Source: an uncultured SAR86 cluster bacterium (lineage in GTDB: Bacteria; Pseudomonadota; Gammaproteobacteria; Magnimaribacterales; D2472). From it: DNA of 47,845 nucleotides. Made by a program: the position numbers and the translations under genes. A model generated the notes under the pieces. The model was not told where the DNA came from. It worked only from the letters and a program-made list of their open reading frames with translations, and made no database searches. The DNA is taken from the NCBI GenBank assembly GCA_902560315.1, contig CACELG010000008.1, positions 1 through 47,845 on the forward strand. Reading direction: 5' to 3'. Positions 19,011 to 23,236 of this stretch are shown one piece after another. Each line of letters starts with the position of its first letter. Within the stretch, counting starts at the first letter, position 1.

Positions 19011-20558
19011 ATGACATATAAAGTACTTAATAATATAACTTTAAAGAATGTTAATAATGGAGTTATATCAAACATAGCTACTGACTTACTTGTTATACCT
19101 ATTAATAAAAAAGTAATGGCATCTGCTGAATTTAAAGAACTTGATAAAAAGTCAAAGGGATATCTCTCTAAATCTGCTAAAGATTCTCTAAGCCCCTCTC
19201 ATCAAAGTCATGTTATTACTTCTCTTGATTCTATTAGCGCAAAGAAAATTCTTCTTTTAAAAGATATTGACCAGAAAAATGATATATATTTATGGTTAAA
19301 CAAATACAAATCCATTGCAAAAATCGCTAATTCACTGAACTGTAAAAGTTTATCAATTTTAGATGGTCAATCTTATCCTGCTGGTAAAGATCAATCATGG
19401 TTCTTAGAAATGATTGCTAGATCAATTGAATCAGGAGCTTATATTTTTTCAACAACTAAAAATAAAACAGCTAAAACTGAAAAAGTTGGTAGTAATGTAG
19501 TGTCTAGTCAGGCTTCTTTAAAAAATGTTTCAATTATAACTTCAAAGCTTTCAGCAAATGGTATAAAGAAAGCTAAAGCATCAATATCAAGAGGTTTTTC
19601 TGTTGGAGAAGGTGTGAATACTGCAAAACATCTTGGGGATTTACCCGCAAATCATGCGACACCAAAATTGATTGAAAAAATTGTAAAAAATACTCTTAAA
19701 CAATATTCGGGATTAAAGGTTAAAACATTAAATGAAAAAGATTTAGCAAGATTAAAAATGGGTTCTTACTTAAGTGTATCTAAGGGAAGTGATGAACCTC
19801 CTAGGATGATAATCATTGAATATAATGGTGGTAAAAAAGCTGAAAAACCTGTTGCGCTAGTTGGAAAAGGAATTACTTTTGATACTGGAGGTATTTCAAT
19901 TAAGCCTAGTTCGGGTATGGACGAAATGAAATGGGATATGTGTGGGGCCGGAACTGTTTTTGGAGTAATGTGCTCTCTTGCAAGAGCTAAAGCAGATGTT
20001 AATGTTGTTGGCATTATGGCATGTGCAGAGAATATGCCTTCAGCAAGAGCAACAAAGCCTGGTGATGTTGTTACCTCAATGTCAGGTCAAACAATAGAGG
20101 TATTAAATACTGATGCTGAAGGAAGATTGGTCTTAGCAGATGCTCTGACTTATGTAGGAAGATATAAACCATCATATGTTATAGATATGGCAACTTTAAC
20201 AGGAGCAGTTGTTATAGCTCTTGGGAGTCATGCAAGTGGAGTAATGGCAAATAATCAATTTCTAGCTGACAAAATTATCGAATCTGGTGAAGAAACTGGA
20301 GATAGAGCCTGGCAATTACCTCTTTGGAATGAATATAAATCATGTACTAGGACTAATTTTGCTGATTTGGCAAATATAGGTGGTGGAAGAGAAGCTGGAA
20401 CAATTCATGCTGCAGCATTTTTATCTAAATTTGCTGAAGATTACAAATGGGCACATATGGATATAGCTGCATCAGCCTGGTCTAGTTCACCAAAGGGCGG
20501 CACTGGAAGACCGGTTCCTCTAATCTGTGATTTAATCTTAAACAAAAAACTTAAATAA
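19011..20558 (+). CDS. pepA: Leucyl aminopeptidase PepA
   Basis: PepA is a hexameric M17 dinuclear metal aminopeptidase; in E. coli it also binds DNA in Xer recombination and carAB regulation. The 515-residue protein has the metal and catalytic residues Lys286, Asp291, Lys298, Asp309, Asp368, Glu370 and Arg372, each 16 positions after the E. coli number. The motif NTDAEGR is intact. It has one of the best ribosome-binding sites in the window (AAGGAG at 18997-19002, 8 bases before ATG). Because carAB is also here with a dyad at its promoter, a conserved PepA role there is conceivable but unproven. It is followed 7 bp later by valS, with no holC between. Confidence 0.97.
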   Translation: MTYKVLNNITLKNVNNGVISNIATDLLVIPINKKVMASAEFKELDKKSKGYLSKSAKDSLSPSHQSHVITSLDSISAKKILLLKDIDQKNDIYLWLNKYKSIAKIANSLNCKSLSILDGQSYPAGKDQSWFLEMIARSIESGAYIFSTTKNKTAKTEKVGSNVVSSQASLKNVSIITSKLSANGIKKAKASISRGFSVGEGVNTAKHLGDLPANHATPKLIEKIVKNTLKQYSGLKVKTLNEKDLARLKMGSYLSVSKGSDEPPRMIIIEYNGGKKAEKPVALVGKGITFDTGGISIKPSSGMDEMKWDMCGAGTVFGVMCSLARAKADVNVVGIMACAENMPSARATKPGDVVTSMSGQTIEVLNTDAEGRLVLADALTYVGRYKPSYVIDMATLTGAVVIALGSHASGVMANNQFLADKIIESGEETGDRAWQLPLWNEYKSCTRTNFADLANIGGGREAGTIHAAAFLSKFAEDYKWAHMDIAASAWSSSPKGGTGRPVPLICDLILNKKLK

Positions 20559-20565
20559 GTAAGTA

Positions 20566-22785
20566 ATGGATAAAAGGTATAACCCAACCGAAGTTGAGGA
20601 GAAATGGGTTCAAATTTGGTCAAAGAAAGTTTTCTTCAATAAAGATAGTGAAGAATCTTTTTCACAGGTAATACCTCCACCAAATGTTACAGGAACTTTG
20701 CATATGGGACACAGTTTTCAATATGCAATTATGGATTTTTATACTAGATATCATCATATGAGTGGTAAAAAATCTCACTGGCAAGTTGGAGCGGATCATG
20801 CAGGAATAGCTACTCAGCTTGTTGTAGAAAATAATCTTGGAAAAGAAAATCTTGATAGAAAAGAAATGGGTAGAGATAAATTTCTAAGTGAAGTATGGAA
20901 ATGGAAAGATTTTTCGGAAGAAAGAATACAATCACAAATAAAAAGATTAGGGTCTTCTGTAGATTGGAATAAGTATAGATTCACTCTAGACGATGGATTT
21001 ACAGAAGCTGTAAACAAGGCTTTTATTGAGTTATATCGTAAAGATAAAATTTATAGAGGTTATAGGTTGGTTAATTGGGATCCATCTTTGAAAACTGCTG
21101 TTTCAGATCTTGAAGTCGTAAGACAAGAAAAAAAAGGTCTTATTTGGCATATTAAATATCATATAGATGATACAGATGAATTTATTACAGTAGCAACAAC
21201 AAGGCCTGAAACTATGTTTGGGGACATGGCAATTGCTGTTAATCCAAAAGACACTCGATATAAATCTCTTATTGGTAAATATGCTCTTCTACCTTTTGTG
21301 GATAGAAAATTGCCAATTATTGGTGATGAGTATGTAGATATGGAATTTGGTACTGGTTGCCTAAAGATAACTCCAGGGCATGATTTTAATGATTATGAAA
21401 TAGGAAAAAAATACTCTCTATATGAGGAAGATAATATTGTGCTTACCTCAAAAAATATTGATGATTTCAAGCCAATTAATATATTTAATGATGAGGCATG
21501 GACTAATGAAAATGTTCCAGAATTATTTAGAAACCTAGATAGGTTTAAAGTAAGAAAATTAGTACTAAGTGAATTGGCAAAATTAGAACTTCTTGTCAAA
21601 GAAGAAGAATATGATGTAAGTGTTCCTAGAGGAGAAAGATCAAATATAGTAATTGAGCCAAGATTAAGTAACCAATGGTATGTAAAAACTTCTGATATGG
21701 CTAAAAAAGCCAACAAGGAGGTTGAAAATGGAAATATCAAATTTCATCCAGAAAACTGGGTTAAAACGTATTTTAATTGGATGGACAATATTGAGGACTG
21801 GTGCATAAGTCGACAAATTTGGTGGGGTCATAGAATTCCTGCATGGTATGACCAAGAAGGAAATATTTATGTTGGTGAAAATGAAAAAAATATTAGGGAG
21901 CACTACAAATTAAATGATATTGAACTTCATCAAGATGAAGACGTTCTAGATACCTGGTTTTCATCAAGCTTATGGCCATTTGGTTCATTAGGATGGCCTG
22001 AAAATACTGAAGATTATGATAATTTCTTTCCTACATCACTTCTTGTTACAGGTTTTGACATAATTTTCTTCTGGGTTGCAAGAATGATGATGATGAGTCT
22101 TGAGTTCACAGGGAAAATACCTTTTAAAGATGTTTATGTCACAGGCTTAATAAGAGATGAAAATGGTCAAAAAATGTCTAAATCTAAAGGAAACATTATT
22201 GATCCAATTGATTTAATTTATGGCATTTCTCTTGAGGATCTTGTTAAAAAAAGAACAACCAATCTCATGCAAGAAGGAATATCTGAAAAAATTGAAAAGA
22301 AAACAAGAAAACAATTTCCTAATGGAATAGATTCCTATGGAACAGACGCTTTGAGAATGACATTCTTTTCATTAGCAACTCATACCAAAGACATCAGCTT
22401 TGAATTTGGTCGACTTAAAGGCTTTAGGAATTTTTGTACAAAAATTTGGAATGCAGCAAGGTTTATTGATGGATATCCAAAAGAAAGAGACTCTTTTATT
22501 GAAGAGAATGATAATGATAAATGGATATATGAAGAATTTCTCAAGTCAACAAATCAAATCAACAAAAATATTCAAGATTACAGATTGGATTTTGCAATTA
22601 ATGAAATTTATGAATTTTTCTGGAATAAGTTCTGTGACATTTATATTGAAGATTGTAAGAAATCTGGAAATACAGCGAACTTAAGACCTTTGTTAAAAGA
22701 AATCTTATATGTAATACATCCATTTGCTCCCTTTATCACTGAAGAAATTAATAGTATTTTATTTCAAGAAAGAATCATTGATTAG
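20566..22785 (+). CDS. valS: Valyl-tRNA synthetase, C-terminally shortened
   Basis: ValRS charges tRNA-Val and edits mischarged threonine. The N-terminal and catalytic parts are complete: HMGH at 46-49, CP1 editing domain about 185-345, a tryptophan-rich region with WWGHRIPAW near 419-427, and KMSKS at 536-540. The protein ends at residue 739, just after the HPFAPFITEEI helix (718-728) of the anticodon-binding domain. E. coli ValRS is 951 residues, and even short forms usually run on for 60 or more after this point, so the end of that domain and the C-terminal coiled coil are missing. Other frames downstream do not read as ValRS, and elaA occupies the space. It overlaps elaA by 11 bp. Confidence 0.93.
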   Translation: MDKRYNPTEVEEKWVQIWSKKVFFNKDSEESFSQVIPPPNVTGTLHMGHSFQYAIMDFYTRYHHMSGKKSHWQVGADHAGIATQLVVENNLGKENLDRKEMGRDKFLSEVWKWKDFSEERIQSQIKRLGSSVDWNKYRFTLDDGFTEAVNKAFIELYRKDKIYRGYRLVNWDPSLKTAVSDLEVVRQEKKGLIWHIKYHIDDTDEFITVATTRPETMFGDMAIAVNPKDTRYKSLIGKYALLPFVDRKLPIIGDEYVDMEFGTGCLKITPGHDFNDYEIGKKYSLYEEDNIVLTSKNIDDFKPINIFNDEAWTNENVPELFRNLDRFKVRKLVLSELAKLELLVKEEEYDVSVPRGERSNIVIEPRLSNQWYVKTSDMAKKANKEVENGNIKFHPENWVKTYFNWMDNIEDWCISRQIWWGHRIPAWYDQEGNIYVGENEKNIREHYKLNDIELHQDEDVLDTWFSSSLWPFGSLGWPENTEDYDNFFPTSLLVTGFDIIFFWVARMMMMSLEFTGKIPFKDVYVTGLIRDENGQKMSKSKGNIIDPIDLIYGISLEDLVKKRTTNLMQEGISEKIEKKTRKQFPNGIDSYGTDALRMTFFSLATHTKDISFEFGRLKGFRNFCTKIWNAARFIDGYPKERDSFIEENDNDKWIYEEFLKSTNQINKNIQDYRLDFAINEIYEFFWNKFCDIYIEDCKKSGNTANLRPLLKEILYVIHPFAPFITEEINSILFQERIID

Positions 22786-23236
22786 GCGGAGTATACATTT
22801 GAATATGGTCTATATCATCCTCTAAATAGACCTCGCCTCTCGATATGAATCCAAGGTCTTTATAAAATTCTTCAAGTCTATGTTGAGCTGAAATTACAAT
22901 TTCATGACTAGGATATTTTTCTTTTAAAAAGCTTTTTCCAATGTTTATTATTTCTATACCAAGCGACTGATTTCTCATAGTTTCTTCAACAACGATCCTT
23001 CCCATTGAGGAACCTTGATACTTAATATCAGGTGCGAAAGCTCTTAAATACGCTACAAGCTTTTCTCCTTCATACCCCAATAAATGAAATGCATTCTGAT
23101 CTGAATAATCAGCATCAATATATGGACAATCTTGTTCCAAAACAAAGACTTTTTGTCTTAAATTTAAAATAGCATATAAATCATCTAAAGATAATTCTTC
23201 AAATTTTTTCCAAACAAATTTAATTTTTTTATTCAC
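22775..23236 (-). CDS. elaA: GNAT-family acetyltransferase, ElaA-type
   Basis: This 153-residue protein aligns with E. coli ElaA along its length: LYAILNLRQKVFVLEQDCPY near 20-39, GRIVVEE near 77-83 in the acetyl-CoA binding region, and a C-terminal FYKDLGF segment. It is a GNAT fold presumably acetylating an amine; the substrate is not known for the family. It begins with GTG. The gene is complete although it collides with the truncated valS from the other strand, so it has not simply been damaged by whatever shortened valS. Confidence 0.88.
   Translation of the reverse strand: MNKKIKFVWKKFEELSLDDLYAILNLRQKVFVLEQDCPYIDADYSDQNAFHLLGYEGEKLVAYLRAFAPDIKYQGSSMGRIVVEETMRNQSLGIEIINIGKSFLKEKYPSHEIVISAQHRLEEFYKDLGFISRGEVYLEDDIDHIQMYTPPNQ

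Follow-up and report, generated by a model that had tools for sequence, protein, structure and literature searches.

A conserved truncated valyl-tRNA synthetase in SAR86 bacteria and its association with an enlarged D-loop in tRNA-Val(UAC)

A complete short valS gene in a SAR86 genome

The DNA analyzed here is a stretch of 47,845 nucleotides (the window; contig CACELG010000008.1 of assembly GCA_902560315.1) from an uncultured bacterium of the SAR86 order, whose genome is a 1.08-Mb draft in 19 contigs and whose nearest named relatives are an isolate and single cells of SAR86. The window harbors a complete valS gene (positions 20566 to 22785, forward strand), assigned with family profiles, which runs from an ATG to a TAG stop codon (22783 to 22785, forward strand) and encodes a short valyl-tRNA synthetase (ValRS) of 739 amino acids. 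As had been noted in an earlier reading of the letters alone (the sequence-only reading), the frame ends at residue 739, 11 residues past the motif HPFAPFITEEI (residues 718 to 728). The protein scores 899.5 bits against TIGR00422 (NCBI equivalog cutoff, 612.1 bits) and 987.3 bits against PRK05729/NF004349 (NCBI cutoff, 704 bits), above the cutoff in both cases, and the alignments stop at model positions 699 of 863 and 683 of 860, respectively. Two short motifs, HMGH (residues 46 to 49; 20701 to 20712, forward strand) and KMSKS (residues 536 to 540; 22171 to 22185, forward strand), are what we take to be the class I signatures HIGH and KMSKS. In a 119-row ValRS alignment, H46 and G48 are invariant and M47 and H49 nearly so, and K536 through K539 are invariant and S540 nearly so. 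Residues 191 to 349, the editing (CP1) domain, match the ValRS chains 1wka and 1wk9 (147 and 146 residues; E values of 1.9e-29 and 2.9e-29), which are presumably structures of editing domains. The statement of the sequence-only reading that the catalytic and editing motifs remain is thus upheld. Judged by its score and signatures, the protein belongs to the ValRS family, and it would be expected to charge tRNA-Val with valine.

The valS gene of the window is the single match at E ≤ 1e-120 in its genome. A second ValRS was considered and rejected: Pfam PF08264 has three matches in this genome, whose open frames are 931, 802, and 740 codons long, and the first two read as isoleucyl- and leucyl-tRNA synthetases, a reading that comes from their length and from weak partial matches and not from a family search.

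Upstream of valS lies an open reading frame (ORF) that reads best as pepA (19011 to 20558, forward strand). Downstream, an elaA-like gene for a GNAT acetyltransferase (22775 to 23236, reverse strand) is convergent with valS and overlaps its 3' end by 11 bp; the score of its product against PRK10314 (104.8 bits) is under the cutoff of that model (171). This ORF was considered as a possible ValRS remnant and rejected, being a GNAT protein by profile matches; the sequence-only reading had seen no ValRS in the other frames before elaA.

Domains kept and lost

An AlphaFold2 model of the window ValRS, built on the 119-row alignment, had a mean predicted local distance difference test score (pLDDT) of 92.1 and a predicted template modeling score of 0.87. 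When the model was compared with known structures by VIA-align, chain 1gax_A, the ValRS of Thermus thermophilus in complex with tRNA-Val, ranked first (Z, 40.4; root mean square deviation of 1.8 over 675 residues), aligned over positions 3 to 702 of 862. The catalytic, editing, and four-helix anticodon parts of the Thermus enzyme (domains PF00133, PF08264, and PF10458) superpose on the short ValRS, whereas Thermus residues 703 to 862, which form helix 5, the alpha/beta subdomain, and the coiled coil, have no counterpart in it. According to the model, therefore, the short enzyme keeps the catalytic and editing domains together with a complete four-helix anticodon bundle, whereas all three of these C-terminal elements, about 160 residues in all, are missing from it. 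In a model of a full-length SAR86 ValRS (from genome G138), the part beyond the truncation point consists of a helix (residues 777 to 793), an alpha/beta region (803 to 858), and a coiled-coil hairpin (865 to 926).

The modeled bundle (22405 to 22764, forward strand; block-mean pLDDT, 88 to 98) has helices at residues 614 to 635, 649 to 670, 674 to 700, and 706 to 717 plus 722 to 733. It includes K626 and N629, which are invariant in the 119-row alignment, and F633, which is nearly so; these are aligned with Thermus K581, N584, and F588, which are reportedly residues of the anticodon pocket (Fukai et al. 2003). Comparison of the tails of short forms shows that the final six residues (22765 to 22782, forward strand) stand where full-length forms run on into the C-terminal elements named above. 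The sequence-only reading had placed the end inside the anticodon domain. This holds for the Pfam domain Anticodon_1 (PF08264), which is incomplete, with only positions 1 to 87 of 148 matched, but not for the predicted fold, in which the chain is cut only once the fourth bundle helix is complete and the four-helix core appears whole.

Bacterial methionyl-tRNA synthetases (MetRS), which are also of class Ia, fill many rows of the same structure comparison, at Z values of 29 to 31. Bacterial MetRS also ends in an anticodon helix bundle and has no such editing domain; it is a family different from ValRS, and the similarity at the end of the chain is an analogy only.

Fukai et al. (2003) reportedly deleted the coiled coil from Thermus ValRS and with it the arm in contact with nucleotide 20 and with the G19-C56 pair, which is said to have raised the Km for tRNA about 28-fold and lowered kcat about 19-fold. 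That laboratory deletion was artificial and reportedly crippling, whereas the loss in SAR86 is natural, older, larger, and under purifying selection. For the Thermus complex, PMC5766645 describes contacts of ValRS with nucleotides of tRNA-Val that include A35, C36, G19, A20, and C56; it places G19, A20, and C56 within a region 3.3 A from the enzyme, says that they affect kcat strongly, and has the T-arm contacted by a "coil-to-coil" arm. The hairpin lost from the short enzyme would be the part that in Thermus ValRS holds the elbow formed by the D- and T-loops of tRNA-Val (here, the elbow clamp). In our proposal, the short ValRS would activate valine, edit, and read A35 and C36 through its four-helix bundle, presumably relying on contacts with the anticodon and the acceptor.

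Four positions in the catalytic part of the enzyme (window residues 89, 118, 137, and 161), distant in sequence from the truncation, are nearly fixed but different in 47 short and 72 full-length ValRS sequences; residue 118, for example, is E in 47 of 47 short forms and G in 72 of 72 full-length forms.

Conservation of the short form across SAR86

Of 203 genomes of the order that were searched, 180 had a ValRS match at E ≤ 1e-120, including 40 of the 40 with at least 90% completeness and at most 5% contamination. Genomes, loci, genera, and families are designated below by working codes (G, L, g, and f). The loci that were fetched contain 62 complete short ORFs, equivalent to 57 distinct proteins, all of 738 to 744 amino acids, and the genome matches listed include at least 76 short copies that are unbroken, their open frames spanning 739 to 754 codons, the other short-type rows stopping at contig ends. 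The short form was found in f1 (genera g1, g2, g3, g12, g13, g15, and g17 and one g16 genome) and in f4 (g6), and the full-length kind, where listed or extracted, in g14, g18, the other six g16 genomes, and the families f2 and f3. PMC11582366 names the related families GTDB D2472 ("Suzuki"), TMED112 (CHAB-I-7), SAR86 (Magnimaribacteraceae), and AG-339-G14 (RedeBAC7D11); we infer that f1, the largest, is D2472, that f4 is TMED112, and that f2 and f3 are Magnimaribacteraceae and AG-339-G14. The full-length SAR86 ValRS is represented by 31 complete copies of 910 to 934 amino acids, together with one cut at a contig end (G167) and one interrupted (G130). These forms are 49 to 57% identical to the short form over the shared part, lie at the same locus behind pepA, and keep all of the C-terminal parts.

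The short gene is under purifying selection. The ratio of nonsynonymous to synonymous substitution rates (dN/dS) relative to the window valS is 0.06 to 0.08 over the whole gene for five pairs. Both members of every pair belong to genus g1, and dS exceeds 1 in four of the five. Over the last 60 codons, the ratio is 0.00 to 0.11 in four pairs, the fifth not being computable. The new C-terminal end is itself conserved among the tails of short forms that were compared. That the short ValRS is functional, and presumably active, is well supported by its conservation in two families, the low dN/dS (about 0.06), the confidently predicted fold, and its standing as the sole strong match in the genome; this is in line with the functional minimal ValRS suggested by the sequence-only reading. 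The recent loss that the same reading offered as an option does not fit, since the short forms make up one long-stemmed clade (see below) and every complete copy extracted has the same end.

Together with the trees and the tRNA data that follow, these results make it very probable, in our judgment, that much of two SAR86 families possesses a real and functional short ValRS which has lost the elbow clamp, had a single origin, and spread horizontally, with tRNA-Val(UAC) most likely re-fitted to it. ValRS is essential, and the elbow clamp is nearly always kept in the genomes sampled. Here, abundant free-living bacteria of the ocean manage without the clamp, with an enzyme that looks fully functional and a tRNA that appears changed at the matching place. 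This bears on how a synthetase survives the loss of a tRNA-binding domain and on whether a synthetase and its cognate tRNA must be inherited or transferred together. The occurrence of both enzyme types, even inside one genus, provides a natural set for testing the role of the elbow clamp.

Three further observations concern single ValRS sequences. A contig of 4,239 bases labelled as part of an uncultured Flavobacteriaceae metagenome-assembled genome (L057; CAJVZM010000096.1) carries a short SAR86-type valS of 741 amino acids, 74% identical to that of the window and with an f4-like tail; the contig is probably mis-binned or mis-named. In G130 (L165), the valS is of the full-length lineage but breaks off at about 635 aligned residues (a 678-amino-acid ORF) on a contig of 1.19 Mb, which may be a sequencing error or a broken gene. 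The C-terminal tail of the full-length f1 ValRS is strongly diverged, that of L134 (g14) being 20 to 26% identical to the f2/f3 tails, as if the constraint on this tail may already be weaker.

tRNA-Val(UAC) and enzyme type

The gene for tRNA-Val(UAC) was searched for in 64 genomes with patterns that leave the size of the D-loop free, and in 21 genomes with a pattern without the D-arm. Among f1 genomes, it was recovered by the former in 27 of 30 of the short type and 13 of 18 of the full-length type (one of the 13 being G130, whose interrupted valS is of the full-length kind). The former also recovered it in 7 of 8 f4 and 0 of 8 f2/f3 genomes, and it was recovered by the latter in 3 of 5 f2, 5 of 5 f3, and 2 of 3 f4 genomes. 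Where recovered, its D-loop takes the enlarged form in 36 of 36 short-type genomes, and the compact form in 21 of 21 of the full-length type. When the letters between AG (AA in f2/f3) and AGAG are counted, the D-loop of the full-length type reads TTGGG in 13 of 13 f1 and TTGGT in 8 of 8 f2/f3 genomes, and that of the short type reads TTTGGT in 27 of 27 f1 and TTGGTT in 9 of 9 f4 genomes. Twenty of the 57 tRNAs were read whole: 11 of the full-length type have 76 nucleotides, and 9 of the short type have 77. The tRNA-Val(UAC) of Escherichia coli has the 76-nucleotide form, with CTGGG. Among the f1 tRNAs read whole, the two types differ in the D-loop and, outside this change, by no more than one base.

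Genus g16 contains both types. Its short-type genome, G139, has an enlarged tRNA-Val(UAC) with a stem variant otherwise seen in g12 (3 of 4 sampled), and five full-length congeners (G136, G138, G140, G141, and G142) have the compact D-loop, although over the part that was scored the tRNA-Val(GAC) of G139 is identical to that of g16. The valS and tRNA-Val(UAC) genes of G139 are about 580 kb apart. As a control, the D-loops of 16 anticodon classes were compared in seven genomes (15 classes being seen in both types, with some cells empty), and only the UAC class split the types fully.

In the reading that we favor, the enlarged D-loop beside G18-G19 may stabilize the elbow in place of the clamp, or it may have drifted after the clamp was lost; enzyme and tRNA would most likely have been re-fitted to each other, and the D-loop change would be compensatory or permissive rather than incidental. 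The most serious competitor, to which we assign a chance slightly below even, is that the D-loop change reflects shared ancestry and drift only, either through relaxed constraint after clamp loss or by coincidence. A number of observations speak for this competitor, against the reading that we favor, or both. On the RpoB tree, there are only three independent contrasts between the types, which agree in direction; the sign test gives P = 0.25, and compensation by the tRNA is therefore unproven. The extra base is placed differently, at position 17a in f1 and 20a in f4. Other D-loops vary as well. That of tRNA-Phe comes near the same split, with three full-length genomes and G139 sharing one form and the other three short-type genomes another, so part of the tRNA pattern is clade history. 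That of tRNA-Val(GAC) is enlarged in both types, and because full-length ValRS tolerates this enlarged tRNA, D-loop size is no strict lock. The tRNA-Asp adjoining tRNA-Val(UAC) also varies in D-loop length, partly along the same clades, its anticodon position ranging from 34 to 37 across L206, L208, L211, L212, L214, L223, L224, L229, L231 to L234, L241, and L242. Neither kind of pattern recovered tRNA-Val(UAC) from one f4 genome and eight f1 genomes. G20 of this tRNA was considered as a covarying element and dropped, as the full-length f2/f3 forms have U20, and it is by the length of the D-loop that the types are told apart; PMC9976931 gives G20 and G45 as minor identity elements for valine in E. 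coli. Against ancestry and drift alone stand the agreement of enzyme type and tRNA form in 57 of 57 genomes, the enlarged D-loop of G139 beside its five compact congeners despite the shared tRNA-Val(GAC), the failure of any of the other anticodon classes compared to separate the types fully, and the location of the changed bases, which flank G18-G19.

A further possibility, which we put forward tentatively and regard as somewhat less probable than ancestry and drift, is that a clamp-less ValRS and a compensating enlarged tRNA-Val(UAC) form a co-adapted pair that spreads horizontally, the two unlinked genes being exchanged together when the type switches, as in G139.

Origin and spread of the short gene

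A tree was built from 44 ValRS sequences on 720 columns shared by them. In it, the 21 short forms were one clade (support, 100; stem, 0.94), the full-length f1 forms grouped with f2/f3 (support, 94), and the f4 short forms were nested in the f1 short forms. A more careful tree of 29 rows again had the short clade (100/100; stem, 1.29), with the full-length f1 forms adjoining it (88/85), and with fewer outgroups the f4 short forms stood beside, not inside, the f1 short forms (80/84). Since the two trees place the full-length f1 forms differently, the nearest relative of the short lineage is unsettled, and since f4 is nested in f1 in one and beside it in the other, the direction of transfer is left open. 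On the evidence of these trees, the short gene appears to have arisen once in the sampled material. A viral origin of the long stem was considered and rejected, there being no match in viral_contigs in one scan, which would detect close relatives only.

The ValRS and RpoB histories are incongruent. Compared with the window genome, three f4 genomes have a ValRS identity of 72 to 75% and an RpoB identity of 61.5 to 63.6%, and three full-length f2/f3 genomes have 53 to 55% and 64 to 66%, respectively. The f4-f1 ValRS identity is above the RpoB identity, which argues for a transfer of the short gene between families. The RpoB of G139 groups with that of its full-length congeners G138 and G142 (100/99), and its short ValRS groups with the g12 short forms (97/98). 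By sequence comparison, the short gene thus appears to have crossed from one family to another and, on at least one occasion, to have entered a full-length genus. Of 89 SAR86 loci tested, some with the short and some with the full-length valS, 88 have pepA upstream of it; the remaining one (L035) has only 254 bases on that side. Because short and full-length valS alike lie behind pepA, the short gene would have replaced the full-length gene in place, by horizontal transfer.

Vertical inheritance would explain the distribution differently: the ancestor of both families had the short gene, and g14, g16, and g18 regained a full-length one. PMC11582366 reports a common origin of the two families, and the position of the f4 short forms beside the f1 short forms in the tree with fewer outgroups would suit this scheme. 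We nevertheless consider it improbable in view of the f4-f1 identities given above, the ValRS type of G139, which breaks its own genus, and the branching of the full-length f1 ValRS, which follows RpoB in the order (g18,(g16,g14)), as expected of a native gene, although this order is weakly supported in RpoB (83/73).

Several observations bear on individual loci. The gap between pepA and valS is 8 to 56 bases in f1, too small for a gene, and about 400 to 470 bases in f2, f3, and f4, and it holds an ORF in four loci that were read (L040, L034, L052, and L046). This ORF is holC (PF04364) in one f2 locus; the one f4 ORF searched, of 134 amino acids, had no significant Pfam match. The ValRS of G015 (L029, genus g1) is 91% identical to that of g17 and 77% identical to that of G000, and the placement of G015 in g1 by RpoB has moderate support (90/88). 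At an unlinked locus, G015 shares the T-loop variant TTCGATCC of tRNA-Val(UAC) with G151 (L157) and G160 (L153), which may be a further case in which valS and tRNA-Val(UAC) were exchanged jointly.

Search for the missing C-terminal part

The model PF10458 stands for the C-terminal coiled coil of ValRS, which is usual in the bacterial enzyme although it does not define the activity. It had no match in the window's genome at E ≤ 10, in agreement with the sequence-only reading that the coiled coil contacting tRNA is absent, whereas 13 of 14 control genomes matched. The absence of a PF10458 match is nevertheless weak evidence, because the number of named control genomes with a match falls to 9 of 14 at E ≤ 0.01. 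A profile of 184 columns was made from the tails of 25 full-length ValRS sequences. It matched 6 of 6 full-length controls at E values of 7e-51 or better and had no match at E ≤ 10 in the window's genome or in 19 of 20 short-type genomes, four of which are one-contig assemblies.

The sequence-only reading had allowed for the missing part being supplied elsewhere. Such a split ValRS, with a separately encoded C-terminal part joining in trans, gains some plausibility from the near-general presence of this domain (PF10458 at E ≤ 0.01 in 357 of 370 sampled gammaproteobacterial genomes) and from two matches in short-type genomes: a 37-column match of the tail profile in G047 (E = 0.019; columns 55 to 91 of 184, in a frame of 235 codons) and an unplaced PF10458 match in G038 (f4; E = 4.8e-5). 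A strongly diverged partner could also escape the tail profile. The match in G047 does not reach the terminal coiled coil of the profile, however, and that in G038, where the tail profile gives none, need not be ValRS, because PF10458 is a plain coiled coil with two or more matches in some genomes. With 19 of 20 genomes blank for a profile that finds every control, a split enzyme is very unlikely. A sequencing or assembly error at positions 22783 to 22785, or a decaying gene, might be suspected in a draft of 19 contigs but has a negligible probability, because the same end is shared by dozens of independent genomes at about 70 to 97% identity, including the one-contig assemblies G034, G041, G044, and G139, and dN/dS argues against decay.

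Short ValRS forms beyond SAR86

The short SAR86 ValRS is new by its architecture, and no natural ValRS of such shape was found in literature searches covering titles and the openings of abstracts. In a comparison with the best 80 of at least 591 loci, seven were SAR86-like and 73 were others; 71 of these 73 had complete ORFs of 869 to 1057 amino acids, one ran off its contig at 834 amino acids, and one was interrupted at 409 amino acids. We do not claim that the short form is unique to SAR86, because eleven other genomes likewise have no PF10458 match. The 13 of 370 gammaproteobacterial genomes without a match at E ≤ 0.01 comprise the short-type SAR86 genomes G000 and G015 and these eleven others, two of which are of 0.4 Mb; G038, the third short-type genome sampled, does match. 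The eleven (G218, G223, G307, G341, G363, G369, G399, G445, G497, G500, and G561, each at least 90% complete) may be candidates for a clamp-less ValRS, a missing valS, or a divergent tail.

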